Positions 18,203 to 55,952 of a stretch of 64,000 nucleotides of DNA are shown in pieces. Positions within the stretch are counted from its first letter, which is position 1. Each line of letters begins with the position of its first letter. The notes under the pieces were generated by a model. The model saw nothing but the letters and a program-made list of their open reading frames with translations. It had not been told where the DNA came from and did no database searches. The translations under genes were made by a program, and so were the position numbers. The stretch comes from Neoakkermansia glycaniphila (lineage in GTDB: Bacteria; Verrucomicrobiota; Verrucomicrobiia; Verrucomicrobiales; Akkermansiaceae): positions 1-64,000 of the forward strand of contig NZ_LIGX01000035.1 of NCBI RefSeq assembly GCF_001683795.1, given 5' to 3'.

Positions 18203-19069
18203 TTACAGGGAACGGCGGCGGCGCAGACCGAAAGCGGCAAAGCCCAGCAGAGCCAGAGAAGCCGTGGCAGGCTCAGGCAGCAGGGCATTCGTACCGTTAT
18301 TGGCCAGCCATGCAGCATCGTCGGCAGTCAGAGACTTATTCCAGATCGCGAAATCGGAAAACTGCCCGTCGCCGCGCGCCGAAGTATTCTCACCGTTGGC
18401 GCCCAGACGGATACTCTTCAGATTGCCGGCCATGCGATTCCATGCCGATGTCGATGTGGCGAACAGGGAACCGTCCACATACAGGGACACGATGCCCGTG
18501 GAAGCCACGCTCACCACCAGAGACTGCCACGGAGCGGAATCCAGAGACGAGAGATCGCCAATCGTCGCTCCCGTATGTGCCGTAATGCTCTTCCGGTCGG
18601 ATGCATACGTCCAGCTCCCGCCGTAGCCCGGAGTCGACACCGTATTGCCCGTAAACAGGAACGAAGCATCCCCCTGCGTACTGCCGGCAAAATAGCTGCA
18701 AAGCGACACACCTGCAGTCCCCATATCGCGCACCTTCACGGAAAAAGCCATACCCTGCGACGCATAATTGATACCCGCGCCCTGCAGATTCTCACAGGAG
18801 GGAGAATAGAAATTGGCGGCATTGGACACCAGATAACCCTTCCCCTTGTAACCGCCCGTCGCGGAAAACACATTGGCATTCCCCAAACACGGGTTGAACT
18901 GGGAACCCGAAGGAGCGATCACCGCACCCAGACGGGCGGTCGCCCCCGAACCGTTCACGACCGTAAAATCGTAATAAACGGATATATCATCCTTGGACAA
19001 GGAAGGAGCTGCCGTTGCCACTCCGCCCAGCAGAGTACCGCACAACAGAATATGATTGATGGTTTTCAT
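18203..19069 (-). CDS. Exported LamG-like PEP-CTERM protein
   Basis: The 288-residue protein has a signal peptide (MKTINHILLCGTLLGGVATAA) and a concanavalin A/LamG-like beta-sandwich. Supporting segments are SVKVRDMGTAG, WQSLVVSVASTGIVSLYVDG and SDFAIWNKSLTADDAAWL, the usual closing pattern of LamG domains. It ends in a PEP-CTERM tail (LLPEPATASLALLGF, then RRRR). A carbohydrate- or matrix-binding role outside the cell is likely. It starts 36 bases after the stop codon of another PEP-CTERM gene and probably shares its promoter. The ATG at 19069 gives the signal peptide; upstream in-frame codons do not. Confidence 0.85.
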   Translation of the reverse strand: MKTINHILLCGTLLGGVATAAPSLSKDDISVYYDFTVVNGSGATARLGAVIAPSGSQFNPCLGNANVFSATGGYKGKGYLVSNAANFYSPSCENLQGAGINYASQGMAFSVKVRDMGTAGVSLCSYFAGSTQGDASFLFTGNTVSTPGYGGSWTYASDRKSITAHTGATIGDLSSLDSAPWQSLVVSVASTGIVSLYVDGSLFATSTSAWNRMAGNLKSIRLGANGENTSARGDGQFSDFAIWNKSLTADDAAWLANNGTNALLPEPATASLALLGFAAFGLRRRRSL

Positions 19070-19105
19070 GGTATAATTATATTGAGAGAATTGTTTAAAC
19101 GGCAT

Positions 19106-19909
19106 TTACCGAATGCGTCGACGGCGAAAGCCCAATGCGGCAAACCCCAGAACGGCCAAAGCTGCCGCCGCCGGTTCCGGAATGCCCATGGCCGCCTTCA
19201 CATCATCGAGACTGTCGGAAGCGGCAAACGAATATACATTGAGATTGCCGACCGTGAGATCGTTCGAACTGCTGATGCCATTGGTTCCTCCCGGACCGAA
19301 GCCCAGCATGAACCCGCCGAGCACAGCCTGTCCGCTCGAAAGCCCGGTCTCGGCCACCGTCAGAAAATCCCTGCCGTTGCCGAAAGAAAGCTGCTGATCG
19401 CCGGCGAACATGTAAATATTGCCACCCCTGTTGACAATGGACAGCTTGAGAAAATCCGCCGTACTCTGCAGGTTGGATGTCGCCGCACGAGTCGTGCTGC
19501 TGTATCCGTTCCACCCGTTGCCGGAACAGAGAGCGAACGTATAACCGTCGGCACTATTCGTCGCCGCAAGAGAAAGGCCGTTTGTCGCATTATTGTTCGA
19601 CGCGAAAATCTTGGCGGCAGTACCGGTCGTATTCTGGAACTTGATATCCATCTGCACGGCCCAGTTCGTCGTCAAATTGTAGGGAGCCGCACCGAAATAA
19701 TATCCGCCTGCCTCGGCAACATTGGAGTGGATCACCGCCGCGCCATTGGTATAACTCACGGAGGAAGCCTGGCCTTGCATCGTATAACCGTTCTGCGACG
19801 TCAAATTGCTGTCGAACTTGTACACATCCGTCAGGGAAACGGCTGCATCAGCACTTGTTGCCACCAGCAACAGAACAACTGTAACAATAGACTTCTTAGG
19901 TTTCATCAT
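19106..19909 (-). CDS. Exported PEP-CTERM protein, beta-sandwich type
   Basis: This 267-residue protein starts with MMKPKKSIVTVVLLLVATSADA, a signal peptide, and ends with IPEPAAAALAVLGFAALGF followed by RRRR, a PEP-CTERM tail. The middle resembles a LamG-like beta-sandwich (WAVQMDIKFQNTTG, LKLSIVNRGGNIYMFAG). Two adjacent ATGs (19909, 19906) are possible starts. It is the first gene of a two-gene PEP-CTERM unit with the LamG protein. Surface or matrix location is inferred from the sorting tail; no enzymatic motif is visible. Confidence 0.82.
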   Translation of the reverse strand: MMKPKKSIVTVVLLLVATSADAAVSLTDVYKFDSNLTSQNGYTMQGQASSVSYTNGAAVIHSNVAEAGGYYFGAAPYNLTTNWAVQMDIKFQNTTGTAAKIFASNNNATNGLSLAATNSADGYTFALCSGNGWNGYSSTTRAATSNLQSTADFLKLSIVNRGGNIYMFAGDQQLSFGNGRDFLTVAETGLSSGQAVLGGFMLGFGPGGTNGISSSNDLTVGNLNVYSFAASDSLDDVKAAMGIPEPAAAALAVLGFAALGFRRRRIR

Positions 19910-19941
19910 TTCATGGGGGGACAGATGCACCTGTCCAACAG

Positions 19942-19971
19942 AAAATACACGGATTTCATATCCTGTGTCAA
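19942..19971 (-). promoter_or_regulatory. Promoter of the PEP-CTERM pair
   Basis: On the minus strand, TTGACA (19971-19966) and TATTTT (19947-19942) are 18 bases apart. The spacer holds a palindrome-like GGATATGAAATCC, close to the 17-base palindrome found elsewhere in the window, so it may be a regulator site. Confidence 0.6.
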
Positions 19972-20077
19972 TCCAAATAAACGATATCTTTGATAATATA
20001 TTTATTATCGCACTGCCTTTTGGTGCGCGCATCCGGAATGCGACGAAATGCCCTCAAACCCTCCTTACTTGTAAAGA

Positions 20078-24445: not shown

Positions 24446-24775
24446 ATGAAAACATGGCCCCTGCTGCTCTGCACCTGCCTCCTCCTCTCCCACTGCTGGG
24501 AAGAACAATCCACCGCCCCTCAACCGGCGGAACAACTTGACACCCTCCGCCCGGCCATCTTCACCACGGGCATCGCCGCCCAGTGCGAAAACCGCATCCG
24601 AGCCGACCTGGCGGCACTCCCCCGCGAACAGGAACTCGCACTGGACAATGCCTACTACCACCAATGGGCGCAAACCGCCCAACAGTGGGAAACCATCCTC
24701 AAAAAACTGAAACGGCACCAACACCACCAATCCGCCGACCTTCAAGAAATACTTGACTCGCCAGAAACTCCATGA
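24446..24775 (+). CDS. Small exported YGS-module protein, possible lipoprotein
   Basis: The predicted product has 109 residues. The N-terminus MKTWPLLLCTCLLLSHC is a signal peptide ending in a lipobox-like LSHC, with His in the -1 position being unusual. The mature part aligns with the second half of the helical module found in the next eight genes: LPREQELALDNAYYHQW corresponds to their 'PEEEQRRVDALY' helix, and HHQSADLQEIL to their terminal NYYGSQTLKKAL. No known family is recognised. Its TGA lies within a 7-base inverted repeat at 24772-24786, and the next gene starts 28 bases downstream. Confidence 0.65.
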   Translation: MKTWPLLLCTCLLLSHCWEEQSTAPQPAEQLDTLRPAIFTTGIAAQCENRIRADLAALPREQELALDNAYYHQWAQTAQQWETILKKLKRHQHHQSADLQEILDSPETP

Positions 24776-24786
24776 CAGCCTGTCAT
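24772..24786. repeat. Perfect 7-base inverted repeat at a gene junction
   Basis: ATGACAG and CTGTCAT are separated by a single C. The repeat contains the stop codon of the upstream gene and lies 18 bases before the next start codon. It could be a protein-binding site or a small hairpin affecting coupling. Confidence 0.5.
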
Positions 24787-24803
24787 CATAGAAACCAAAC
24801 CCC

Positions 24804-25643
24804 ATGCACACGCCCGCCATCTTCCTCTTCGCCGCTATGGCAACAGCCGCCCAGGCCGCAGAACAACCGTCTCCCGTATCTCCTCCCGCCGCACCTGCCG
24901 GGCAACAGCAGCCCCTGCCCACTTACCTTGATTATTATCACAACCTCTTATCAGGACTCATGGTTCTGAACGGAATTCTGGCTAACGTCAAGGACAAGGA
25001 ATCTGCCGACCAATCTGCCGAATTTGCCTTCGCCATCTATGAAAACATCAACGAAATCCCACGGTCAGCAGCTCTCAAACACACATCCGAAGAAGAACAA
25101 CGCCGTGTGGATGCCCTATATTCCGCAGCAAAACAAGCGTTCACACAAAACTTGCAACAACACATCCGCAACATCGTCCTGCATAAAAACTACTCTTCCG
25201 ACCACATGGGCGAACTCATCGACAAACTCGCGGAAAGCGACTGGGCCGCCGACCATCCGTCCGACTCCTCCGGCCTCCAAACAAACCCCGCCAAATTGCA
25301 AAGCGCCGAACAGGAAATGTCCTCCTTCCTCGACCAAACATTGGAACAAATCGAAAACATCAACACCCTCCTGCAAACCGTACACAACACGGTATCTGCC
25401 GATCTGGCGGCCGAAAAACTGGCCGCGTTCATGCAGCAAACGGAAGCCCGCAGAGATCAGCTCAGTGAAAAACACGCGCAAACTCCCCCCAATATGGTGG
25501 AAAGAATCATACAATCCCGCATGCAACGGATAGAATCCGGCAAGGCAGCCACGAAAGCCGTCCAGAAAAAATTGGAACAGCAAAACTATTACGGTTCCCA
25601 AACTCTGAAAAAAGCCCTTCTGAAATTTGCCTACCGATTCTGA
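24804..25643 (+). CDS. Exported two-module YGS protein
   Basis: This 279-residue protein has a signal peptide (FLFAAMATAAQAAE) and a Pro/Gln-rich linker (PSPVSPPAAPAGQQQPLP). Two helical modules of about 110 residues follow. Each begins with a 'SAD' helix (NVKDKESADQSAEFAF; TVHNTVSADLAAEKLAAF), passes through a second helix, and ends in a Tyr-Ser motif (HKNYSSDHMGELI; QNYYGSQTLKKAL). I do not recognise the family and would not assign a function. It has no Cys for lipidation, so a periplasmic or secreted soluble form is likely. The first 115 bases of its coding region are nearly identical to those of the next gene, while the mature domains have diverged. Confidence 0.75.
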   Translation: MHTPAIFLFAAMATAAQAAEQPSPVSPPAAPAGQQQPLPTYLDYYHNLLSGLMVLNGILANVKDKESADQSAEFAFAIYENINEIPRSAALKHTSEEEQRRVDALYSAAKQAFTQNLQQHIRNIVLHKNYSSDHMGELIDKLAESDWAADHPSDSSGLQTNPAKLQSAEQEMSSFLDQTLEQIENINTLLQTVHNTVSADLAAEKLAAFMQQTEARRDQLSEKHAQTPPNMVERIIQSRMQRIESGKAATKAVQKKLEQQNYYGSQTLKKALLKFAYRF

Positions 25644-25738
25644 CCCGCCTCGCGACTGGGTGCTTCACGCACCTCATCAGAAAAAACACCAGCCACATTC
25701 CCGACACATAATCCCTTCCTCAAAATCCGCATCATCCC

Positions 25739-26578
25739 ATGAACAAACCCGCCATCTTCCTCCTTGCCGCTATGGCAACAGCCGCCCATGCCGCAGAACA
25801 ACCGTCTCCCGTATCTCCTCCCGCCGCACCTGCCGGGCAACAGCAGCCCCTGCCCACCTACGACGAACACTATCGGAACACACTGGCAGCGCTCGACTCC
25901 CTCAACAGCATCCTCGCCACCGTCAAAGACAAAGCCTCTGCCGATCAAGCAGCGGAACAGGCCTTCGCCATCTATGCCGAACTCAACAAAATCCCCCTGC
26001 CGCCCATCATCAAACAGACACCGGAAGAAGAACAACACCGTGTAGAACAGCAATATGCCGATAGAAAAAATGCAACCATGCAACAGTTTCAACAACACAT
26101 CGGCAATATCTCTGTGTATGAGGGCTACACCTCCGACCGCATGTGTGAATTCATCGTCAAACTGCAGGAAGACCACTGGATCGATTACAACCCGCCCGGA
26201 TCCGCCAACACGCAAACAGACCCCGCCAAACTTCAAATCCTTGAACGGGAAATCCCCGCATTCTTCGACACAATGTTCGAAGAAATGGAACACCTCAACA
26301 GCCTCCTGCAAACCGTACAAAACACCGCATCTGCCGACGCGGCAGCAGAAAAACTGACTGCCTTCATGCAAACAATGGAGACTGCCCGTGATCAGATCAT
26401 CGAGAAAAACGGAATGCCGCCCCGCGACATGGGAGACCGCATCATGCAACCCCGCCTGCAACGCATGGAAACCATCACCACCGCCACGGAAACCATCCGA
26501 AAAAAACTGGAACAGAAAAACTACTACGGCTCCGAAACCCTCAAAAACGCCATTCAAAAATTCTCCCGACTCCTCTGA
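25739..26578 (+). CDS. Exported two-module YGS protein, tandem paralog
   Basis: This has the same length (279 residues) and layout as the preceding gene. It starts with a signal peptide (MNKPAIFLLAAMATAAHAAE) and the same Pro-rich linker. Module 1 has TVKDKASADQAAEQAF and ends VYEGYTSDRMCEFI. Module 2 has NTASADAAAEKLTAF and ends KNYYGSETLKNAI. Both are alpha-helical and charged. The DNA of the signal-linker part differs from the neighbour at only about four positions, then identity drops sharply, which suggests gene conversion or cassette exchange. Function unknown. Confidence 0.75.
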   Translation: MNKPAIFLLAAMATAAHAAEQPSPVSPPAAPAGQQQPLPTYDEHYRNTLAALDSLNSILATVKDKASADQAAEQAFAIYAELNKIPLPPIIKQTPEEEQHRVEQQYADRKNATMQQFQQHIGNISVYEGYTSDRMCEFIVKLQEDHWIDYNPPGSANTQTDPAKLQILEREIPAFFDTMFEEMEHLNSLLQTVQNTASADAAAEKLTAFMQTMETARDQIIEKNGMPPRDMGDRIMQPRLQRMETITTATETIRKKLEQKNYYGSETLKNAIQKFSRLL

Positions 26579-26620
26579 TTACGGCCTGCAACCAACTCCT
26601 CCATCCTCCAAAAAACACTT

Positions 26621-26665
26621 TTTTTTTCGGACGACATCCCCTTTCAAACGTTATTCAACATAGAA
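26621..26665 (+). promoter_or_regulatory. Conserved upstream element, copy 1
   Basis: TTTTCGGACGA, then CAAACGTTATTCAACAT 17 bases on, ends about 15 bases before the ATG at 26679. A close copy lies at the same distance before the ATG at 29728. A shared promoter or operator is likely, though the boxes do not match the sigma-70 consensus. Confidence 0.5.
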
Positions 26666-26678
26666 CCCTATCGACCCC

Positions 26679-28037
26679 ATGACCATCCGCCAGCATCTCA
26701 GCCTCATCCCGGCCACCCTTGCACTCGGCCTCTCCCTCCTTGCAACCGCCACCGCCCAATCGGACGGCACACAGGAACCGGGCTGCTCCGAAACAATCAC
26801 CTGTCAGGCACAACTGGAAAACCACCTTCAAGCCATACTGGCCCATTATCAGGAACTGGAAAACCAACTATCCAAAGCCACCACCCAGGCAGGAGCCAAA
26901 GACATCTGGAATATGATACATCGCGAAATGGGAAACGAGCTGCAAAACAGCTCGTTCATCCGCGACGATCTCCAAGGCATACCATTCAAAGAACAAAAAC
27001 GCATTCTGGAGCCTTACAGAGAGAAAATGCAAAGCATCGACAGCAAACTGTCCATACAACTCAAAAGACTCGGCTTCGACAAACGCAGTATCGCTTACTA
27101 CATGGACCAGATAGATCCCATCCATTCATTCATCGAAGCCTGGGAAAGCCTTGTTTATCAATATCCGGAAGAATCCGATGCCGACGAACTATTCCAGCAA
27201 TATCTTGCACGGCTCGACAATCACGACAAACTTCTCTCCTCCATCCGCACACCGAACGACAGGCAACGCGTCGAAGAAACAATCGACACCATCCGAATTT
27301 TGCACGACGAGCTACAAGAAAAGAAGATAACGCGCTTACGACCAAATCATTTTAACAGAATTAAGAATGATGATTGGACAAACGAGCTGCAGGATTTGTT
27401 GCAAAAATTGCCTCCCGAAACACAAAAACGTCTCTATGACAAATACCTCCCCCTGACTCAACCCTTCCTCCATCTCCCCTCCGGAAAAGCTTCCGGACAA
27501 TACCATTACCTCGTCTACCAGTCGGAACCTCTGCTGCAATACCTCTCCCGGCGATACCAAGAACAATACATGCTGCAAAAGGCACAGGAAAACATCACAG
27601 AACAAAAACAAGACAACTTCCCTGTCGGCATGCCCGAAAAAGAAATCCTCATTCGTCAAAACATTGCCCTGACAAACCAACTGAGCAACCTTCTCTCCGA
27701 AATAACAGGCAAAGCGGCAGCAGCCGCTGCAGGACCACATGCTTATGATTTGAAAAACAGATTACTGGAAAACAGGGAACTACTCATCTGCTCGGATGAC
27801 GTCTCGCCTGAAGAACAAACCCGCATCGACCGGGCATATGGCGAGCACATGCAACAGGCAACCGACAAACTGAACAGACAAGTACAACGCCTGGCATCGA
27901 AAAAGACCTACCGCAACAATGACCTCTCCGACATCGTAGCAGAACTATCTCCCGAACAGAAACCACAACAGCAAAACAACGCCACCCCCGTCGCAGACCA
28001 AACGGAAAAAGCCCAGCCGGAAACGGACGAAAATTAA
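26679..28037 (+). CDS. Exported three-module YGS-family protein, divergent
   Basis: The 452-residue product starts with a signal peptide (SLIPATLALGLSLLATATAQ). The rest is almost entirely helical and charged. Three diverged copies of the module can be seen. The last is the clearest: SPEEQTRIDRAYGEHMQQA followed by SKKTYRNNDLSDIVAEL, which matches the neighbours' NYYGSxxLxxAL ending. The tail is Gln/Pro-rich. No enzymatic motif or known domain is recognised. It is the longest member and the first gene after the conserved upstream element, so it may head a separate transcript with the two following genes. Confidence 0.72.
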   Translation: MTIRQHLSLIPATLALGLSLLATATAQSDGTQEPGCSETITCQAQLENHLQAILAHYQELENQLSKATTQAGAKDIWNMIHREMGNELQNSSFIRDDLQGIPFKEQKRILEPYREKMQSIDSKLSIQLKRLGFDKRSIAYYMDQIDPIHSFIEAWESLVYQYPEESDADELFQQYLARLDNHDKLLSSIRTPNDRQRVEETIDTIRILHDELQEKKITRLRPNHFNRIKNDDWTNELQDLLQKLPPETQKRLYDKYLPLTQPFLHLPSGKASGQYHYLVYQSEPLLQYLSRRYQEQYMLQKAQENITEQKQDNFPVGMPEKEILIRQNIALTNQLSNLLSEITGKAAAAAAGPHAYDLKNRLLENRELLICSDDVSPEEQTRIDRAYGEHMQQATDKLNRQVQRLASKKTYRNNDLSDIVAELSPEQKPQQQNNATPVADQTEKAQPETDEN

Positions 28038-28049
28038 CCCCGCACCCGC

Positions 28050-28922
28050 ATGAACGCCAACCTCCTCCTCACAGCCTGCCTGCTTGCGGCCAACATCAGT
28101 CATGCGCAGAACACCCCCGGCACGGCACGACAGACGGAACCCGCCACCCCACAAACGGAACGGCAGCGACACGCCAACACCTACGAAACACATGTCCAGG
28201 GAATGATCGCCCATAAAACGGCGCTCGCAAACGCTCTGGCACAAGCCACGGACAAAAACACCGCAGAAACGGCAGCACGGAAAGCCGCGCAAACTTACCG
28301 GCAAATGCACGACTACTTCAGCAGCACCCTGCCCGGCATCAAAACAGCGCTTGAAGAACTCCCCGTCAGCGAAGTCGACGCGATCACCAGCCGCCACCAA
28401 CAAGCCAGAGAGACTGCCGAACAGGCTCTCGACAAAGAAGTCCTCCGCATCAGACTCCATGATGCCTTCGGCAACGAACCGTTGGCACACCTCATCACCG
28501 ACATCATCGCCTCCGGCCTTATCCCCGTGGCAAACCTCCAGCAGGAACTGACCGACCCGGAAGCGCTGCAGAAACTCGAACACGCCATGCGGGCATATTA
28601 CACCCAAATGATCGGCAACCTTCAAACCCTCCTTGCGGAAATACAGTCCATACACGACAAAACCACGGCCGACGCCGCAGCCGCCCGCATACGAACATTC
28701 TTCTCCGAACAGCAAAAAACGGAAGAAACCGCATTCGCCGACATGGTGCATACATACGGAACCCCGCCGGATACCCTCAAACAAAAAATCATGGACGAAT
28801 TCCTCCCTCAACTCCGGCAATGCCAGACAACGAGCGAAGAACTGAAACACAAACTCGAACAAACAAACTTCTACGGCTCACAGGAACTGCAAAAAGCCCT
28901 CAATCAGCAACCTGAAGCCTGA
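28050..28922 (+). CDS. Exported two-module YGS protein
   Basis: The 290-residue protein starts with a signal peptide (MNANLLLTACLLAANISHAQ). Module 1 contains QATDKNTAETAARKAAQTY and ends with a degenerate motif (AFGNEPLAHLI). Module 2 contains SIHDKTTADAAAARIRTFF, a second helix beginning GTPPDTLKQKIM, and the clear ending TNFYGSQELQKAL. It starts 12 bases after the previous stop codon. Function unknown. Confidence 0.72.
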   Translation: MNANLLLTACLLAANISHAQNTPGTARQTEPATPQTERQRHANTYETHVQGMIAHKTALANALAQATDKNTAETAARKAAQTYRQMHDYFSSTLPGIKTALEELPVSEVDAITSRHQQARETAEQALDKEVLRIRLHDAFGNEPLAHLITDIIASGLIPVANLQQELTDPEALQKLEHAMRAYYTQMIGNLQTLLAEIQSIHDKTTADAAAARIRTFFSEQQKTEETAFADMVHTYGTPPDTLKQKIMDEFLPQLRQCQTTSEELKHKLEQTNFYGSQELQKALNQQPEA

Positions 28923-28966
28923 CCTCAACAGACAAACGCCACCTCTTCCCCGCCAACAAAACAACC

Positions 28967-29440
28967 ATGAACAAAACAATCAAACACATACGCGCAGCCC
29001 TCATCCTTGGCACGGCTGCACTCACCCCCGGACTCCTCCAAGCCGCTCCGGACACTCCTTCCGCCGCACCGTCCGCGGAAAAGAAAACCGAACCGGCAAC
29101 TCTCGTCAAACAGATGGAAACGGCATACGACGAAATCAAAACACAACTGAACGGCATCCATGACAGGCCAACCGCAGATGCCGCCGCCGCACAGCTGAAA
29201 AACGCCAAAACAGCACTCTCAGCCATCGGCGCCTCCTTGAACCAAACCATGCTTACCTCGGGGGAAAAACAGCAGTTGCTCGACATAAGCAGCAACATCG
29301 GGAGGCTCCTCGCACAAAACAAGGCCATCCTCGAATCGAACGAATATTACGGATCGGATGAACTCCGGGCAGCCATGCAGGCATTCTTCATCCCCATGAA
29401 AAAGAACGCAGACGGAGCCTACATCCTGCCCATGTCATAA
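28967..29440 (+). CDS. Exported single-module YGS protein
   Basis: This is the simplest complete member, at 157 residues: a signal peptide (ALILGTAALTPGLLQAA), a short Pro/Ala-rich linker, then one module. The module has the first helix GIHDRPTADAAAAQLKNAK, the second helix TSGEKQQLLDISSNIG, and the ending NEYYGSDELRAAMQAFF. It is useful as a reference for module boundaries. It is followed by a strong terminator, so it probably ends the first transcript block. Function unknown. Confidence 0.72.
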   Translation: MNKTIKHIRAALILGTAALTPGLLQAAPDTPSAAPSAEKKTEPATLVKQMETAYDEIKTQLNGIHDRPTADAAAAQLKNAKTALSAIGASLNQTMLTSGEKQQLLDISSNIGRLLAQNKAILESNEYYGSDELRAAMQAFFIPMKKNADGAYILPMS

Positions 29441-29485
29441 AAACGGCTCATTCCGCCTGCCCAGACACCCGGCACCATCCTTTCC

Positions 29486-29524
29486 ATGAGGAAACTCATA
29501 CGTTGAGTTTTCTCATTGTTTTTT
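29486..29524 (+). terminator. Strong intrinsic terminator inside the YGS cluster
   Basis: ATGAGGAAACTCA (29486-29498) pairs with TGAGTTTTCTCAT (29504-29516), with one G-U pair, and is followed by TGTTTTTTG. It separates the genes up to 29440 from those after 29728. Confidence 0.85.
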
Positions 29525-29673
29525 GTCGGACAAATGCGTTTTGCGTGATCGATTGATCTTTTATAGTCAGCACAAAAAAAATATACGAATAAAAACGAAA
29601 ACACGTTAACAAACAAAAAACTAGAAATATAAACAAACAGAAAGCCGACCATTATTTCAACGCAAAACAATGT

Positions 29674-29715
29674 ATATTTTCGGACGAAGCTCATCTCAAA
29701 CGTTATTTAATATAA
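29674..29715 (+). promoter_or_regulatory. Conserved upstream element, copy 2
   Basis: TTTTCGGACGA, then CAAACGTTATTTAATAT 16 bases on, ends about 15 bases before the ATG at 29728. It matches copy 1 at 26621. The surrounding 200 bases are strongly AT-rich and hold no gene. Confidence 0.5.
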
Positions 29716-29727
29716 ACATACAATCAT

Positions 29728-30918
29728 ATGAAAAAACATTCCCATCCCACATCGTGGCCGATCATACTCGGCATCGCCCTCCTCGCAACAGGCACGCAAA
29801 CAGTCAAAGCCGCACAGCCGGAGCCCACACAACAGGCAGCACCCAGCACCGATCCCTCAGCCGACATCAAAGAACTGGAAACCATGCACCTTGCCATCCA
29901 ATCCCGGTTGGCTGCAATCCATGACCGAGGCTCTGCCGATAAAACAGCCGAATGGCTACACGCAAACCGCCTCAAATGGGCCGGACTCGTCGCGTCCCTG
30001 CGTCGAACCCAATTACCCACGGAACTCGAAAAAAGAAAACTCGACATCCAGCATCGTACCGGCCTCCTGCTCCTGCAATATACTTCACAATTCGCAGCTC
30101 CGACAACCCTGATTGTATCGGACAGCGGCGTCACAAATGCCAGATTCCACGGATCGGACAAATTGTTGCACACGCTGTACGCCTGCTTCGCCCCGGTAAA
30201 CGCAGAAGACACGGGCATGTACCACACGCCGCCATTATACAAACAGCTGCTCATTCATTACGGCATGATGCTACGCGCCGCCGAATCCATGTTCGCACAC
30301 ATCACCAACCAAGAATCTGCAGAAAGCACCGCCAAACGATTGTATACGCTCATGCACACCATGCAAACGCTGCAGGCAAGGATGCAAACACTGGCCCCTT
30401 TTCCCCGATGGGAAGACACACCTCCCTTCAATAATATCGGCTACATGCCCCTCATTCGGAAGCACATCCTTCAACTCTCCGAAACTGATTACCATGAATC
30501 GTTGGCTCTGAAACTAATCTGCGAAACCATCTTCCTCCCTCCGTCTGGCCTCTCCGTCCATCAAGAACTGCTCGCACAGCAGGAATGCGACCTCTACACG
30601 GTCATCCAGCAAGAATTGGCCTCCGTCCATGACAAAGATTCCGCCGAAAATACCCTTCTCCTCATTCGGCCATGGTTGCAAAAACTCGACTCTCTTCATA
30701 CACATTTCGCCATCAACTGCCACTCCTCGCAGACGATGCCCGCGCGCTGCCAAAAAATGTGCGAATACGGCTCCGCCTTCACCGACACCTGCTTCCATCT
30801 GATGCAAAACAATTACTATAATGCACCGGACCTGCAAAAAGTCGTCGAATCGCTTATCCGGAACCTCCCAACACATGCCGAACTCTACCGCCACGATATG
30901 AACGACGAAGCTACCTGA
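29728..30918 (+). CDS. Exported three-module YGS protein
   Basis: This 396-residue protein has a signal peptide (IILGIALLATGTQTVKAA) and three modules. Module 1: AIHDRGSADKTAEWL, then FHGSDKLLHTLYACFAP. Module 2: HITNQESAESTAKRLYTL, then DYHESLALKLICETIFLP. Module 3: SVHDKDSAENTLLLIRPWL, then NNYYNAPDLQKVVESLI. The modules are degenerate but in register. It is the close partner of the next gene, which has the same three-module plan and similar inter-module segments. Function unknown. Confidence 0.75.
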   Translation: MKKHSHPTSWPIILGIALLATGTQTVKAAQPEPTQQAAPSTDPSADIKELETMHLAIQSRLAAIHDRGSADKTAEWLHANRLKWAGLVASLRRTQLPTELEKRKLDIQHRTGLLLLQYTSQFAAPTTLIVSDSGVTNARFHGSDKLLHTLYACFAPVNAEDTGMYHTPPLYKQLLIHYGMMLRAAESMFAHITNQESAESTAKRLYTLMHTMQTLQARMQTLAPFPRWEDTPPFNNIGYMPLIRKHILQLSETDYHESLALKLICETIFLPPSGLSVHQELLAQQECDLYTVIQQELASVHDKDSAENTLLLIRPWLQKLDSLHTHFAINCHSSQTMPARCQKMCEYGSAFTDTCFHLMQNNYYNAPDLQKVVESLIRNLPTHAELYRHDMNDEAT

Positions 30919-30980
30919 CAACAAACACCCTCTGAGTCCACACCACAACAACCATCATCTCATCCAAACACATTCATTCC

Positions 30981-32147
30981 ATGCATCCCCTCCGCACATA
31001 TACAACCCATGCCGCGCTCTGTTGCCTCGGCATCGCCCTCTTCGCGGCAAGCACAGGAAAGGTATCGGCCGAACCGGCTGCCGACCTGAAAACCGCCTTG
31101 CAGCAAATAGCACCCGACACCGATCCCGCAGCCAACATCAAAGATATGGAAACCCTGAACCATATCATGCAAGCTCAACTGCAGGGAATCCACGACCAGG
31201 CTACCGCTGACGAAGCCGTAGCCTTATTGCAACAGAGCAGGCTCAAATTGCGCACGATACTTCATCTCCTTTACCAACTCGACCTGCCGCCGGAACTCGA
31301 CCGCCAAAAAATCTCTATTGAAAGCACGATCGGACGCATGCTTTTGACATATCGTGCTGAACTGAAAAATAAAGATTTTTACGGTTCGGACAAGTTGCGG
31401 CATGCCATGCATGACTTTTTCACCCCAGCAAAATACATGACGCTTTCTTATTATGTGTACCCTTCTCAATACACCAGATTGCAGAAAGTCTATGACACAA
31501 CTTTGAAAGACACCATCGCCGCCCTCGCCCAAACGTCCGACAACACCTCAGCAGAAACCACCGCCGAAAACTTGCATTACGCTGCGCGCTCCCTGCGAAG
31601 CCTGCAGGCAAGAATGCAAAATCTGGATATCCAATCCGGTCTCAATCCAAGCTGCCCCACAGGCGATCCCTCCCTCCTCCCACAGATACAAAACCATATA
31701 AAGCAATTGCAAAGCGTAAAATATTACGACTCGCCGGCACTTCAGCAAACCTGCGAAACACTCTTCTCTCCCGTATCCGATCATTTCGAGTACATGGAAA
31801 TACTCGCCCAACAGGAATGCGATCTCTATACAATCATTCTGGACTATCTGTCGATGATCGATGACGACACTTCGGCCGAAGACGCCCTCCTTCACACATG
31901 GCAATGGACCAGAAAACTCAATCAACTCCACACGAACATGGAACAAATTGCACCGCCATCCAACATAGCACAGCATGCCATACTCTCCCAGCGGAGAATC
32001 TCCATGGCACCTCGCTACGATCAAGCACTCTTCCGCCTCATACGCCAAATGGGAAATAAAAAATACTACGGATCGAACGAACTGGAATGCAACATGCAAG
32101 ACCTCCTGCACTCAATCGGCCAAGGCATCGACCCGTCCATTCGTTGA
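30981..32147 (+). CDS. Exported three-module YGS protein, paralog of the previous gene
   Basis: The 388-residue product has a signal peptide (AALCCLGIALFAASTGKVSA). Module 1 reads GIHDQATADEAVALLQQ and ends DFYGSDKLRHAMHDFF. Module 2 reads QTSDNTSAETTAENLHY and ends KYYDSPALQQTCETLF. Module 3 reads MIDDDTSAEDALLHTW and ends KYYGSNELECNMQDLL. The segment QQECDLYT between modules 2 and 3 is identical to one in the previous gene, so these two are recent duplicates. Function unknown. Confidence 0.75.
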   Translation: MHPLRTYTTHAALCCLGIALFAASTGKVSAEPAADLKTALQQIAPDTDPAANIKDMETLNHIMQAQLQGIHDQATADEAVALLQQSRLKLRTILHLLYQLDLPPELDRQKISIESTIGRMLLTYRAELKNKDFYGSDKLRHAMHDFFTPAKYMTLSYYVYPSQYTRLQKVYDTTLKDTIAALAQTSDNTSAETTAENLHYAARSLRSLQARMQNLDIQSGLNPSCPTGDPSLLPQIQNHIKQLQSVKYYDSPALQQTCETLFSPVSDHFEYMEILAQQECDLYTIILDYLSMIDDDTSAEDALLHTWQWTRKLNQLHTNMEQIAPPSNIAQHAILSQRRISMAPRYDQALFRLIRQMGNKKYYGSNELECNMQDLLHSIGQGIDPSIR

Positions 32148-32282
32148 GAGCCTGCCATCCGCAGCCGACAAACCTTCTCTTCCACTGCAGAGGGGAAGGT
32201 TCCTTATTCGAAGCAGAAACGCCACCGCATGGCCCGTACTCCGGAACCATCGTGTAATGCAAGACACCCCCGGCCACCATCC

Positions 32283-32311
32283 TTGACACCCCGACCTACC
32301 CAAGCTATCAT
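32283..32311 (+). promoter_or_regulatory. Promoter of the last YGS gene
   Basis: TTGACA (32283-32288) and TATCAT (32306-32311) are 17 bases apart, with the ATG nine bases after the -10 box. Confidence 0.7.
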
Positions 32312-32320
32312 CTTACCGGA

Positions 32321-32797
32321 ATGATACGCACAATCTCACTGACGCTCCCCGTCTTCGGCATCTTCACCGCCGCCGGACTCGCCGAAACCGCTCCTGCCTC
32401 CGAATCGGCCCAGCCTGAAACTGCCGCCGAACAGACTCCCAACCCCAACCCCGACGACGAACGCATCGAAAAAGCCTATACCGACCTCATCGTCGCCTTC
32501 GGAAAACTCGACGCCATCCTCGAAGGCACCACCAGCAAAGCACAAGCCGACCTCATCGCACCGCTCTTCCTCGCAATGCTGGATCAAATCAAAACCATCT
32601 TCGCCCATGCGGCCCAATTATCGCCATCCCCTGAAATGATGGAACCCATCATGAAAGTCTACGAACCGGCACTGGAAAAATACAATCAAAGCATCGATAC
32701 CCACATCGACCGCATCCTCAACAACAAATGCTACGGCTCCGACGCCATGCAAAAAGCTATCGGAGAATATTTCAAACCTGCCCGAAACAAACCGTAA
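32321..32797 (+). CDS. Exported single-module YGS protein
   Basis: This 158-residue protein has a signal peptide (SLTLPVFGIFTAAGLAE), an acidic Pro-rich linker, then one module. The first helix contains TSKAQADLIAPLFLAM, the second SPEMMEPIMKVYEPAL, and the end is NKCYGSDAMQKAIGEYF. It has its own promoter and is followed by a hairpin terminator, so it is transcribed alone. It closes the nine-gene cluster. Function unknown. Confidence 0.72.
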   Translation: MIRTISLTLPVFGIFTAAGLAETAPASESAQPETAAEQTPNPNPDDERIEKAYTDLIVAFGKLDAILEGTTSKAQADLIAPLFLAMLDQIKTIFAHAAQLSPSPEMMEPIMKVYEPALEKYNQSIDTHIDRILNNKCYGSDAMQKAIGEYFKPARNKP

Positions 32798-40747: not shown

Positions 40748-41443
40748 CGATTTACTTGAATCCAAAGTAAGGCATGGTACAGTTCGCGATTGAGACAGTG
40801 TCGCCTTCTTTATGTTTTGCCTCGAATCCAAAATCAGGCATGGTACAGTCAAAAAGCGGGTGACGAGGTAGGGAAATTCGTTTTGCCTTGAATCCAAAAT
40901 AAGGCATGGTACAGTAATCGCTCTCGGTACAGGGATACGAGCCGGGTTTTGCCTTGAATCCAAAGTAAGGCATGGTACAGTGAACAAACCCTGCCCCTCA
41001 AACCGGAATACGTTTTGCCTTGAATCCAAAGTAAGGCATGGTACAGTAAGAGTGGCGGCTACGTTGTCAGTCTCAACGTTTTGCCTTGAATCCAAAGTAA
41101 GGCATGGTACAGTAGACCACGGCATCCCCATGGTCATCAAGCAGTTTTGCCTTGAATCCAAAGTAAGGCATGGTACAGTAAGAGTGGCGGCTACGTTGTC
41201 AGTCTCAACGTTTTGCCTTGAATCCAAAGTAAGGCATGGTACAGTTAATTAGCATAGTAAATAGCTGGAATTATTGTTTTGCCTTGAATCCAAAGTAAGG
41301 CATGGTACAGTGAACAAACCCTGCCCCTCAAACCGGAATACGTTTTGCCTTGAATCCAAAGTAAGGCATGGTACAGTCATCTACGGAAACTAATGACCAT
41401 CATGCACGTTTTGCCTTGAATCCAAAGTAAGGCATGGTACAGT
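40748..41443 (+). CRISPR. Type II-C CRISPR array: 11 repeats of 36 bases, 10 spacers of 30 bases
   Basis: Repeats begin GTTTTGCCTTGAATCC and end AAGGCATGGTACAGT. Repeat starts are 40748, 40814, 40880, 40946, 41012, 41078, 41144, 41210, 41276, 41342 and 41408; every spacer is exactly 30 bases. The first repeat is badly eroded in its 5' third, and repeats 2 and 3 each carry changes, so the left end is the oldest and the cas-proximal right end the youngest. Spacer 4 equals spacer 9, and spacer 5 equals spacer 7. Each intact repeat contains TTGAAT-N16-TACAGT with TGG before the -10, a built-in promoter as in Neisseria type II-C arrays. Transcription from these runs left to right, giving crRNAs whose 3' part starts GUUUUGCC and can pair with the predicted tracrRNA. 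Confidence 0.97.
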
Positions 41444-41501: not shown

Positions 41502-41834
41502 CTACCACAAAAGCATCTGTTCAGGCATGGAGATATCCGGTGGAGGCTTCGACTTTCCGTGAAAAATGTAGGTTTTGTCCCACTGGATATTGGTCACGAA
41601 CATGCATCGCACCGAACCGTCAGGAGGCACCATGCTACGCAAGCGCCGGGCATGGGTTTCTATTCGTTCCTGAGTGACACAAGCCCGTGCATACACACTG
41701 TATTGCACCATCAGGTAACCGTCTTCCAACAGGTTTTTCCGAAACTGGATGTACTGTTTTTTGTCCTCCCGCGTGGTGGTCGGGAGATCGAAGAAGACTA
41801 CGAGCCAGCCCATTTTATAGTTGATATTGTCCAT
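41502..41834 (-). CDS. cas2: CRISPR-associated endonuclease Cas2
   Basis: Cas2 bridges two Cas1 dimers in the spacer-integration complex. The 110-residue product has the ferredoxin-like start GWLVVFFDLPTTTREDKK, with the conserved Asp, and LLEDGYLMVQYSVYAR, typical of type II-C Cas2. The start is uncertain: 41834 gives the usual length but overlaps cas1 by 37 bases; 41813 (MGWLVV) overlaps by 16. It is the last gene of the cas9-cas1-cas2 operon and its stop codon is about 40 bases from the array-end hairpin. Confidence 0.93.
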   Translation of the reverse strand: MDNINYKMGWLVVFFDLPTTTREDKKQYIQFRKNLLEDGYLMVQYSVYARACVTQERIETHARRLRSMVPPDGSVRCMFVTNIQWDKTYIFHGKSKPPPDISMPEQMLLW

Positions 41835-42733
41835 GGTTCATAAGGTCCGGACTGGTGAGACAACACCGCCTGCCGGAAGCTTCGGCATACGGCTTCCAGA
41901 GAGGCGCGGATCGTTGTTGTTTTCCCGCGGCAGAAGGTTTCGGCATCCAGTGTGGAGATGATATGCCGCCGGTATTCCCGCGTGATTTCGGAGATGGAAT
42001 CGGGAGACTCATCCTGCTCGAGTCCCCGGCGAATCCAGCGGGCGACATTGGCATCGAATGCCGGACGAAAGGGCTCCATCAGGTCATAAGCAAGCGGTGC
42101 GGCATGTTCCCGTGCCTGATGGAAGATGCCGAAAGCCGGGTCGAGCCCCAAGGCGTAAAGTTTTTGCAGAATGGAGGAGAGGAGTATGGCGTAGGCGTAG
42201 TTGAGCAGAGAATTATAGCCTTCTTCTTTGCGGCCGCGCCGAAAGTTTGCATCGGCAAAAGTATCGGCAAAGATACTCCAGAAGAGCCGCGCCGTGTCTG
42301 CTTCCCGGTTGGGGCGGCGGGATGTTGCCACGGCGCATATTTCTTCGATCTTCGGATGGAGTGGATTCCATGCCGTTGCCAGTTCTGCCTGATTGCCGCA
42401 TTTGGCGGATAGCGTTTTATCCCAGAGGCGTTTTTTCAGATGGGCAGGCATGGTAGCGAGACTGCGGAGGGTAGCTGTGTCCGTAGCCCGGTCTGCCGGC
42501 AGGATGAGAGCCGCCGGTTTGTGGCTGTCGCACAGGATGAAGCCTATGCGACGTTTGGCTGCCTCGATGATGAGGTTGCTGGTCAACGTGGCTTTGAAGG
42601 AACTCACAATAATGGCGCCTACATCTTCGAGTGGTATGCTCTGGCGTCCGCTGTCGCTGATGCAACTAAGCTGCCCTCTTTCGCAGCTCAACTGGCAGGT
42701 ATAAGCGTCGATGCTGAGGATATGATAGGACAT
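41798..42733 (-). CDS. cas1: CRISPR-associated integrase Cas1
   Basis: This 311-residue protein inserts new spacers into the array. The metal-binding set can be seen: Glu in READTARLFW, His in GIFHQAREH, and an acidic residue in YDLMEPFRP. The segment GYNSLLNYAYAILLSSI is the typical helix of Cas1. It starts a few bases after the cas9 stop codon and overlaps cas2, so the three are translated together. No cas4 or csn2 is present, which defines subtype II-C. Confidence 0.96.
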   Translation of the reverse strand: MSYHILSIDAYTCQLSCERGQLSCISDSGRQSIPLEDVGAIIVSSFKATLTSNLIIEAAKRRIGFILCDSHKPAALILPADRATDTATLRSLATMPAHLKKRLWDKTLSAKCGNQAELATAWNPLHPKIEEICAVATSRRPNREADTARLFWSIFADTFADANFRRGRKEEGYNSLLNYAYAILLSSILQKLYALGLDPAFGIFHQAREHAAPLAYDLMEPFRPAFDANVARWIRRGLEQDESPDSISEITREYRRHIISTLDAETFCRGKTTTIRASLEAVCRSFRQAVLSHQSGPYEPWTISTIKWAGS

Positions 42734-42736
42734 AAT

Positions 42737-45700
42737 TTATGGAGTTGTTCCGCAATAAGTGGTAGGTAAGATTTCCATGCCTTGCGAAAGCAGGGCTTTT
42801 ATGCTAACGTTCTTCCAGTTTTCAGTCCTTGTGTCTTCGATCTTTCCGGCGTAGTACGGCCTCTGCAGATTGACTTTCAATCCCGACGATCCTTGATCCT
42901 GAATACTGCGCACTTTCCACATTCCGTTTTTGTCGCCGGATTTCTGATGACTCAACCGAATCAGCATGCCTTTTTTCAAGAGGCGCACATGGCGGCCATG
43001 ATTGAGCTTGCGTAGTTCTTCGAGCCTTTTGTACACATTGTGGTGAGGAATCATGGTCGGTACAGGATCCAGCGCAATGGCAAAATTGTCTTTGATGATG
43101 ATGACGCCGCGAATAGGCTGAAGTTTGGATGTTCCCGTCGGTTTGATGCCGACGAGCTTGCTGGCCTTTTCCGTAATCGGATTGCCTTGTTTATCCGTTT
43201 TCCGCGTTCGGATACGATTACCGTCTTTACCGATGCTGAGGCTTTTCTGCCTGATGACGACTTCCGAATTGTCGTCGATGTGTTGCCCGGGGGCAATGCC
43301 CCAAATGGTTTCTTCCAGTTTTGCGCCGCTCATGTCCGCCGGGATGTGTTGGACGACGCGGCCTTCGGAAAGTTTCGCCGCGATGGAGTTTTTCAATGTG
43401 GTAGGGAGGTCTCGAAGTTCGAGCTTCGATTCCTTCGTGATGGTATAATATCTTTTGCTGACAGCGGATTCTACTTCCTGGCGTACGTTTTCCGGCAGAC
43501 GGCGTGCGGCAAGAGCTTTACGCAGGAGTCCGCTACGGTGTTCGGGAATGAGATGGGGAATCAGCCCCAGCACGCAGGCATCCAGAGCATGGTGCAGATG
43601 TGTCAGCCTGCGCAGGGTTTCCTTGTCCTGAATCCGGTGGGTGACAGGATCAACGGCCTCCGGACAGATTCCGGCAAGACAGCCTGCAACTTTCCATGCT
43701 TTGCGCACGGTTCCGGTGATGGCACCGGGTATCATGTCGACCGTGGCGTGAGGAAAGTTTTTGCGTACTCCCCGGGCCGCAATTTTCATCAGATGTGAGC
43801 TCTGTGTCATCATGCCTTCGGTAAAGTCGAGCTCGCTCTCTCCATTTGTCCCTTGTGAGGAGAGCCGATCCACCATCATGAGTTTTTTCCGCGTTTTCTT
43901 GCGTTTGGCATCGTCTGCATGTCCTTTCGTATCCAGTTTTTCGACAAATGTTTCATACTGTTTGACACTGACAATGTTTTGATTGCGGCCGGGCACCGAT
44001 TGACCTTCACATTCCTTGATGAATTGGTAGGCGGTGCGTTTTCCTTTCATTTTATTGACTGCCAGCCATGTGAGAACGAGCGCGGAGAGGGCATCTGTTT
44101 TACGGTTGGCATAGGGAACGATGTGTTCCCTTTCGAGTTTCGGAAGGTCGTAGGGCATGTAAGTTTGTCCCGTAAAGGGGCATTGCCAATTCATGTCCAT
44201 GGCGATGCGGCATTTGCGGATGAGTCCCGCGCTTGTGGCCATGTCCGGCGCATGCTTGGCGAGATAGGCAACGGCGGATTTGAAATGTTTCATACGCTCA
44301 TTCAACTCGCTCTGGATTTGTTTGGAAGTCATTCCAGAGAATGCGCTCAACTCGCGCCCGACTTCGATGCAGAACCGTTCGACGCGGGAGGGATCGCCAT
44401 CGGCGAATTCCCGGACGAGATCCTGCGTAAGCCGATCGAGAATCAGCATGCGGTGCCGGACAAGATGGTTATTGGTCAAAGCATCGAGCGGGAGCTTGTT
44501 CAGGTACTCGTTTTCTTTGGACGCAGGATCCAGCAGGCCGTACAGACAACCGTGCGAAGGCTTGTCTTCACCGTCCGGATGTTGTTCATCGAGGGCCGGT
44601 CTGGTCGGATCCTCTCCATTCATGATTTCATCAACGGCCTGACGCAGGACGGGACGGGCATAAGGAGCCCGCCCGCTGGCTGTTTTCGGCGCCAGCGGCT
44701 TGTCTTGCCATGCGATGGACGCATCGGCAGAAGCGTCCGTATCGTTTTTACGGGGCCGGGGCGCCTTTCTGCCCTGTTGTTTCGCGATGGCCAGATCAAG
44801 CGCCTGCGTATCTTCTCCGTGGCGAAGCATCATGTCTCGCAGGTAGGCGGGAGTACAGATTTTGCCTCGGCGAAGACGCGTTAGAGCAACTCTCCGTACG
44901 ACAGAAGAAAGAGCATCATACAATCCGGTACGGTGCAGGCATTCCATAGCCGGATCCAGAATGAGTGCCTCTTCGCTATCGGGGTGAAGGTGGAAGTAAT
45001 GATCGATATTGCTTTCTACATCTCCCATGAGGCGCATGATTTCCTTTTTGATTTTTGCGGCAGTCAGTTTTCCTTCCGCCCGGGCAGCTTGCATGAGTTC
45101 ACACCGCACCTCGACAGGAAGGGGCAGACCGTTCGCCCGCAGGTTGTTCAAGATGCGGGCGAAGCGGTAGGCATAGAATTCGGGACAGTCTGCGGTCGGC
45201 ACCTTGGCGACTTTGTCCGCAAGCGCCTGCGCCTCTTTTTCACTCATGCCGCTTGTTTTCGCCTGCTCGAAAGTATGCGCCCAAATAATGGGGCACCGGC
45301 GAATGATGCGATTGTCGAAACGCGGCAGCAACTGCCCGAACAGGAGGCTGCCACGATACCGTCTGGCGAGGCGTATTCCTTTTGCGGCCAGTTCGCTGCG
45401 CTGCTCGGTGGACAAGTCTTCCTGCTGGGCGATGAGTCGGATGATCTCCGGCGTCAATTCCTTGATGTGGGATGCACTGTGACGAAGAATGTCCAGTACT
45501 TCACGCTGGACGACATCGCGAGGAAATGCCGAGTTGAGCGTGCGGTAGGCGGGAGTGGATACGGTCATTGCTGCATCCGGAACATCCATATCCAGCTCCA
45601 TGGCATGGCAGAGAGTGGCGCACATCGTCTCTGCGCCGAACTTCTGCATGAGGTGGCGCGCATTGTTTACTTTTTCCGTATCTTCTTTCGTGGAGACGGT

Positions 45701-46096
45701 CGCCCATGCGGCATTGTTATCATATCCCCGATTGTGGGCATACCAGCGCAGGATGTGCCAGACTTCAAGCGGAGAGAGTTGCCGGATGCCCTGCCACGCT
45801 TGAGCAGCGAGAAAGAACGGGGCCGGATGGCCGGGGGTGGCTTTTTCTTCCGGCGTCAAGATACCGGCCTGTACCAGCAACTTGCCGATTCTTTCAATAC
45901 GGACGCGCCGCGAGCGGATATTGCGGCGCAGCCTTCGGTAATTCCGCCTCTGGAACGCCTGGCAATCGTCGGACGGAAAGAGTACAGTGCCGCAAGCGAC
46001 AATGCCGGGATCTTGTTCCGGCTGTGCAGGAGCCTGCACAACAGCCCAACCGATAGAGGCGTAACCGACATCAAAAGAAAAGGTAATGTTTTGCAT
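42737..46096 (-). CDS. cas9: Type II-C CRISPR effector nuclease Cas9
   Basis: Cas9 (1,119 residues) cuts DNA matched by crRNA with tracrRNA. RuvC-I is FSFDVGYASIGWAVV with Asp9. The Arg-rich bridge helix follows (RRNYRRLRRNIRSRRVRIER, about 50-69). RuvC-II is RFCIEVGRE with Glu578. HNH is LEREHIVPYANRK with His658, and Asn681 is in AVNKMKGK. RuvC-III is LHHALDACVLGL with His835 and Asp838. The HNH residue before His658 is Glu657, where SpCas9 and NmeCas9 have Asp. The compact recognition lobe and the size fit II-C. The last 200 residues should read the PAM, which cannot be predicted here. The ATG lies within 10 bases of the tracrRNA promoter. Confidence 0.98.
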   Translation of the reverse strand: MQNITFSFDVGYASIGWAVVQAPAQPEQDPGIVACGTVLFPSDDCQAFQRRNYRRLRRNIRSRRVRIERIGKLLVQAGILTPEEKATPGHPAPFFLAAQAWQGIRQLSPLEVWHILRWYAHNRGYDNNAAWATVSTKEDTEKVNNARHLMQKFGAETMCATLCHAMELDMDVPDAAMTVSTPAYRTLNSAFPRDVVQREVLDILRHSASHIKELTPEIIRLIAQQEDLSTEQRSELAAKGIRLARRYRGSLLFGQLLPRFDNRIIRRCPIIWAHTFEQAKTSGMSEKEAQALADKVAKVPTADCPEFYAYRFARILNNLRANGLPLPVEVRCELMQAARAEGKLTAAKIKKEIMRLMGDVESNIDHYFHLHPDSEEALILDPAMECLHRTGLYDALSSVVRRVALTRLRRGKICTPAYLRDMMLRHGEDTQALDLAIAKQQGRKAPRPRKNDTDASADASIAWQDKPLAPKTASGRAPYARPVLRQAVDEIMNGEDPTRPALDEQHPDGEDKPSHGCLYGLLDPASKENEYLNKLPLDALTNNHLVRHRMLILDRLTQDLVREFADGDPSRVERFCIEVGRELSAFSGMTSKQIQSELNERMKHFKSAVAYLAKHAPDMATSAGLIRKCRIAMDMNWQCPFTGQTYMPYDLPKLEREHIVPYANRKTDALSALVLTWLAVNKMKGKRTAYQFIKECEGQSVPGRNQNIVSVKQYETFVEKLDTKGHADDAKRKKTRKKLMMVDRLSSQGTNGESELDFTEGMMTQSSHLMKIAARGVRKNFPHATVDMIPGAITGTVRKAWKVAGCLAGICPEAVDPVTHRIQDKETLRRLTHLHHALDACVLGLIPHLIPEHRSGLLRKALAARRLPENVRQEVESAVSKRYYTITKESKLELRDLPTTLKNSIAAKLSEGRVVQHIPADMSGAKLEETIWGIAPGQHIDDNSEVVIRQKSLSIGKDGNRIRTRKTDKQGNPITEKASKLVGIKPTGTSKLQPIRGVIIIKDNFAIALDPVPTMIPHHNVYKRLEELRKLNHGRHVRLLKKGMLIRLSHQKSGDKNGMWKVRSIQDQGSSGLKVNLQRPYYAGKIEDTRTENWKNVSIKALLSQGMEILPTTYCGTTP

Positions 46097-55805: not shown

Positions 55806-55952
55806 TCTCGCGGGCATCGTAACAGATTCGATATCCGCACGACAAGCAATTTGTTCGTTCTTATCATTTTATCAAGAAAACCAACCATGAGGCAAAAAAA
55901 CCAAAAAGTATTGACTACTTGATTATCTACCGTTTGATGCAGAAAAAAGCAA

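Follow-up and report, generated by a model that had tools for sequence, protein, structure and literature searches.

A cluster of nine exported proteins built from an uncatalogued, predicted helical module in Neoakkermansia glycaniphila

Nine adjacent genes share one module

The window analyzed here is the whole stretch of 64,000 nucleotides from position 1 to position 64,000 of contig NZ_LIGX01000035.1 (assembly GCF_001683795.1, Neoakkermansia glycaniphila). Nine adjacent open reading frames (ORFs), g1 to g9 (proteins P0001 to P0009), lie at 24446 to 32797, all on the plus strand. Inspection of the translations revealed an export signal at the start of all nine proteins, and a module alignment showed that one module of about 98 residues was common to all of them, as the first-pass annotation had claimed when it described nine adjacent exported proteins made from a single module.

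The g1 protein (24446 to 24775, 109 amino acids [aa]) consists of the export signal and the second half of one module; its match to a profile built solely from modules outside the window (the held-out profile) was confined to residues 53 to 104, which agrees with the earlier reading of this protein as carrying the second half only. The g2 protein (24804 to 25643, 279 aa) has a signal peptide, a Pro/Ala linker, and two modules, and two modules each were also found in its sister g3 (25739 to 26578, 279 aa) and in g5 (28050 to 28922, 290 aa). One module is present in g6 (28967 to 29440, 157 aa) and one in g9 (32321 to 32797, 158 aa), the protein for which a structure was predicted, while g7 (29728 to 30918, 396 aa) and g8 (30981 to 32147, 388 aa) carry three each. 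For g4 (26679 to 28037, 452 aa), we found a weak first module at about residues 53 to 132 and a clear last module at residues 328 to 422, and no profile detected a module in the middle of the protein. The proposed range of one to three modules per protein thus stands overall, with all three numbers represented, but a middle module in g4 does not. The profiles supported 16 modules plus the half module in g1, rather than the approximately 18 copies counted at first; among the 16, the first modules of g4 and g7 matched the held-out profile weakly.

A genome pattern search located an upstream element, TTTTCGGACGA-N9/10-CAAACGTTAT, that starts 51 to 55 bases before g4 and g7. The copy before g4, with the N10 spacing, lies at 26624 to 26654 and the second copy, before g7, at 29677 to 29706, both on the plus strand. 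These were the only 2 sites genome-wide, and a reversed-pattern control gave zero sites in the genome. With both occurrences inside the cluster, a genome-wide regulon acting through this element was rejected. The two genes that carry it, g4 and g7, are not nearest paralogues.

Profile tests and controls

The held-out profile detected all nine cluster proteins, with E values ranging from 4.6e-4 to 3.6e-32 (g3, 3.6e-32; g8, 3e-26; g5, 7e-24; g2, 7e-22; g7, 3e-18; g9, 1e-17; g4, 9e-15; g6, 3e-12; and g1, 4.6e-4). Full profiles searched against 2597 reversed or shuffled ORFs produced zero matches below an E value of 1e-3, and 12 of the 14 genomes of other genera in the same order, which served as a negative control, gave no match at an E value of 0.01. 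The similarity among the copies thus goes beyond that of generic helical repeats, and the exported module family of the cluster is real. Profile searches also recovered module copies genome-wide and genus-wide, which the reading of a single stretch could not have shown.

In the family alignment, conservation was high in the first motif, DxxSADxAA (D, 82%; A, 100%; A, 87%; L, 83%), and in the YGSxxL end (Y, 75%; G, 65%; S, 76%; L, 91%), and outside both motifs mainly a hydrophobic pattern was retained. The two motifs named at first reading are therefore present in the module alignment but are looser than described: the "SAD" positions allow S/T-A-D/E, and none of the YGS residues is invariant. 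Mean identity between module copies was 20%. The alignment contained no conserved set of catalytic residues, and the modules are probably nonenzymatic.

Searches of catalogues, phage and defense collections, and the literature

When the nine proteins and further members were tested against Pfam and NCBIfam, none reached a curated cutoff. Scanning 56 modules singly against Pfam yielded scattered weak matches to unrelated families, with one or two members each, and the best of these (E value = 6e-6) was to an unrelated family and came from one member only. A PDB sequence search by profile returned just designed or other helical proteins, at E values of 0.004 or worse. No family member matched an entry in PHROGs or PADLOC at an E value of 0.001, and a search of phage and plasmid records with the family consensus gave no match; on the basis of these empty searches, a phage, plasmid, or defense origin was rejected.

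A literature search found no description of the module family. A study of the outer-membrane proteome of Akkermansia muciniphila reports many exported proteins of the genus that are uncharacterized, and its main text describes no family like the one reported here (PMC4960237). The original statement that no named family shows this pattern was upheld by the searches of Pfam, NCBIfam, PHROGs, and PADLOC, and below-cutoff results in the first two place the module in no already characterized domain family. Lineage-specific expansions of small, exported helix-bundle modules are known as a kind; the SAD-YGS family itself is uncatalogued.

Predicted structure of the module

We modeled g9 with AlphaFold2, using 41 family sequences as input. 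The model had a mean pLDDT of 90.7 and contained helices at residues 22 to 46, 51 to 76, and 82 to 112, a short turn at 114 to 117, and a helix at 119 to 129. The module is thus confidently predicted to fold into three long helices and a short fourth helix, and its helical character, first proposed from the translations, was borne out. Judging from the order of the helices (topology), DxxSADxAA would fall in the loop after helix 1, at the start of helix 2, and YGSxxL between the end of helix 3 and the start of helix 4, which would put both motifs at one end of the bundle. Such an arrangement suggests that the conserved motif end either locks the fold or forms a common docking end, with helix sides that vary from copy to copy. 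S/T-A-D/E and G-S-x-x-L resemble helix caps, and a capping role by itself could account for the conservation of the motifs. In a model of the two-module protein g3 (pTM 0.51), both modules were confident and the linker was not (residues 132 to 139 below 50), indicating that the modules are arranged as beads on a string, with no confidently predicted orientation.

Comparison of the g9 model with known structures gave a best E value of about 1 with Foldseek and Z values of 6 to 9 (best, 9.0) over about 80 to 118 residues with VIA-align, to FliT, syntaxin Habc, and other three-helix bundles; for such Z values, a level of about 13 would mean more than a common arrangement of helical bundles. The resemblance was judged to be such a common arrangement and did not assign the module to a known fold. 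FliT, syntaxin Habc, BAG, and spectrin-type repeats (PDB) likewise have three long antiparallel helices, but they share no sequence similarity with the module and have other cellular roles. The cytochrome b562 family (PF07361) likewise forms a small periplasmic helix bundle and matched 2 of the 56 members weakly in Pfam (best E value = 0.062). Unlike in cytochrome b562, the fourth helix of the module is short, and membership was ruled out because the family alignment has zero conserved columns of haem-ligating Met or His. The periplasmic chaperones Spy and CpxP are also small exported helical proteins and are a possible working analogue, but their motifs differ, and their Pfam family (LTxxQ) had no match in the nine proteins at E values up to 1.

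Distribution within the genome, the genus, and the class

About 43 modules, spread over more than 20 places, were counted in the genome that contains the cluster (3.16 Mb, 41 contigs). Of these, 15 or 16 are inside the cluster, and the others lie at more than 15 further sites, on roughly the same number of contigs. Family members in this genome occur as single modules, pairs, lipoproteins, and fusions, the last with the module before another exported domain (L071 and L072) or behind one (L079 and L083). The second exported domain in L071 (5453 to 7354) and L072 (5424 to 7226) carries a GGxGxSxExAIxL-like motif and has no Pfam match. Loci L083 and L084 (G000 C1:48000-58000 and C18:107000-117000) share a stretch in which the genes are identical and run in opposite orientation on the two contigs, which may reflect either a recent long duplication or an effect of assembly or contamination (the genome is rated 5.13% contaminated).

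Among genomes assigned to Akkermansia by inference, modules were found in all 40 that were searched, at 2 to 43 per genome, and one further genus genome (G130) had a single module. A scan with the porin gave only two named relatives, and the stretches of their DNA that were covered contained no family members. Among 262 genomes of the same class from outside the genus, 12 gave a match, nearly all with one copy. Some of these copies keep the full pattern, such as a lipoprotein with DTASADSAAE...RLEKENFYDSEALKKAL (L111/L124), and others retain the first motif and lack the YGS end. The rare, single copies outside the genus, together with the genus-wide multiples, suggest that an old, rare exported protein multiplied in this genus. 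A whole class of Akkermansia envelope proteins thus appears to be undescribed. Research on Akkermansia treats it as a beneficial symbiont of the gut, one that meets mucus and host through the proteins it exports. That a family present in all species tested, at as many as 43 modules in one genome, has no catalogue entry leaves an obvious gap.

A simple rule assigned an export signal to 122 of the 127 distinct proteins of the family, 13 of these with a lipobox, and the five proteins without a signal look shortened, mis-started, or fused. Most members have soluble SPI-type signals, and the mature proteins are acidic. Both properties would suit general envelope upkeep, in which small periplasmic helical proteins chaperone or buffer exported proteins in the manner of Spy or CpxP and were multiplied later. 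So would the copies outside the genus, which are single lipoproteins or periplasmic proteins adjoining unrelated housekeeping genes; single copies beside unrelated genes in other bacteria of the class argue for a general envelope role that predates mucin use. Weighed against the missing Spy/CpxP match in the nine proteins and against a fixed operon with a gene termed C (see below), which suggests specific partners, upkeep of this kind appears unlikely.

Growth of the cluster and selection

A tree of 58 modules (99 alignment columns) left most deep forks open but resolved several pairs. The second and third modules of g7 and g8 paired with each other (SH-aLRT, 95 and 93), and the first module of g8 paired with g6 (SH-aLRT, 98). 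The proteins g2 and g3 paired module by module (98 and 93), with the second module of g5 outside (97). When membership in the window was mapped as a label on the tree, 6 changes were needed, compared to 13.4 in shuffles. The paired modules indicate duplication of entire genes in addition to internal duplications of older date. The proposal that the cluster grew by both gene and internal duplication is accordingly supported, with gene copying seen in the pairs g2/g3, g7/g8, and g6 with the first module of g8.

Between g2 and g3, DNA identity was 94% over the first 40 codons (signal and linker) and 67 to 71% in the modules, and dS was 0.10 at the start versus 0.67 to 0.80 in the modules. The low dS at the start is a sign of either recent exchange or constraint on this part of the gene. 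The dN/dS ratio was about 0.5 overall for g2/g3, which indicates purifying selection, and about 0.45 for g7/g8, a pair close to saturation. Positive selection was rejected on these values.

These results bear on whether the modules are host-facing, diversified surface proteins that bind host mucus or immune factors, comparable to the helical surface lipoproteins that have expanded in certain host-associated bacteria. The strong expansion in a gut-mucus genus with few copies elsewhere, the species-specific clusters, and the variable helix faces would all fit, but we regard a host-facing role as unlikely, given the g2/g3 ratio, the positive selection that was not seen, and the lipid anchor that is absent from most members. 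If a tolerant helical scaffold had been amplified in a mostly neutral way, leaving most copies with little function under selection, this could account for a copy number that varies from 2 to 43 between species, for the low identity between copies, and for the half module in g1. Such an origin is nevertheless improbable, since dN values are below dS, which denotes purifying selection, and nearly all copies have intact reading frames and keep the motifs.

Genomic neighbors and the operon C-B-A

The carbohydrate porin near the cluster had been offered as a hint of function. In three genus genomes with closed or almost closed assemblies, homologues of the porin, Ppx, and NUDIX genes lie far apart. 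The neighbors of the cluster are therefore not conserved, the porin neighborhood loses its value as a functional clue, and local synteny as a guide to function was rejected. The window cluster has no conserved glycan-related neighbor.

In relatives, we found an operon, C-B-A, made up of a coiled-coil gene, C, followed by two single-module genes, B and A; six loci were read (L164, L165, L166, L167, L168, and L169). C is an exported coiled-coil protein of 430 to 550 residues with no significant match in Pfam or NCBIfam, B carries MRxxWGKVY...RCY, and A carries EFYGSEDLPAAL. Gene ends overlap in several of the loci. C was present in 20 of the 24 genus relatives searched, and in all 20 it had module genes on its own strand no more than about 0.7 kb away. 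The conserved operon offers a small starting point on the role of the family. A search of the window genome for C showed it to be absent, and the cluster of this species may therefore use other partners.

Directly after C-B-A, a GH110-type gene was found in three of the six loci read, one called by Pfam PF23764 (2e-16; GLAA-B domains) and two by 52 to 54% identity to that protein. Family GH110 is known for its alpha-1,3-galactosidases, which act on blood-group B. Other members of the module family adjoin hexosaminidase-, sulfatase-, GH35-, and C11-peptidase-like genes, as judged by eye only. Because glycan enzymes abound in Akkermansia genomes, neighbors of this kind may be due to chance.

Rhs-like genes adjoin members at L079, and a peptidase-like gene does so at L076. 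Members are also small, exported, tandem, and diversified, features that, like these neighbors, might be expected of immunity or inhibitor proteins that each bind one exported toxin or enzyme. We consider this highly improbable: PADLOC and PHROGs are without a match, most copies have no adjoining paired toxin, and the A-B-C operon has been maintained in 20 species, a stability that most immunity genes lack.

Proposed role of the modules

The reading that we favor, tentatively and at somewhat less than an even chance, is that the modules have no enzymatic activity and serve the envelope as scaffold or binding units, conserved at one end and variable along the sides, and that in at least some species they work with C in glycan foraging. 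Such subunits would sit in the cell envelope or at the cell surface, and one to three modules carried on flexible linkers would provide multivalency. From the sequences and models, we infer that the modules bind protein or glycan and that they are located beyond the inner membrane, and a link to foraging is suggested as well, with the modules serving assemblies for mucin-glycan foraging. A more specific version, which we hold to be quite unlikely, is a modular, multivalent binding system of the Akkermansia envelope, made of dozens of diversified modules, some of them encoded in the operon with the C scaffold and a blood-group-type alpha-galactosidase; this system would organize or select mucin glycans differently from the SusD/SusE-type lipoproteins of Bacteroidetes.

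Other features of the window and genome

Elsewhere in the window, about ten repeats with a 66-base spacing were found at 40748 to 41443, followed by a 311-aa ORF in the place of Cas1 (41798 to 42733) and a 1119-aa HNH/RuvC protein identified as Cas9 by Pfam (42737 to 46096); the array and Cas9 likely form a type II CRISPR-Cas locus. A single ORF at 53307 to 55817 combines iron-sulfur, FrhB/FdhB-type, and polysaccharide pyruvyl transferase domains, and its surroundings are likely a surface polysaccharide locus. Long tape-measure-like and tail-like ORFs (L085; G000 C15:64000-83000) suggest a prophage just right of the window. On the minus strand, at 18203 to 20032, two adjacent ORFs have PEP-CTERM-like tails, and the ORF at 18203 matches LamG and PEP-CTERM in Pfam.
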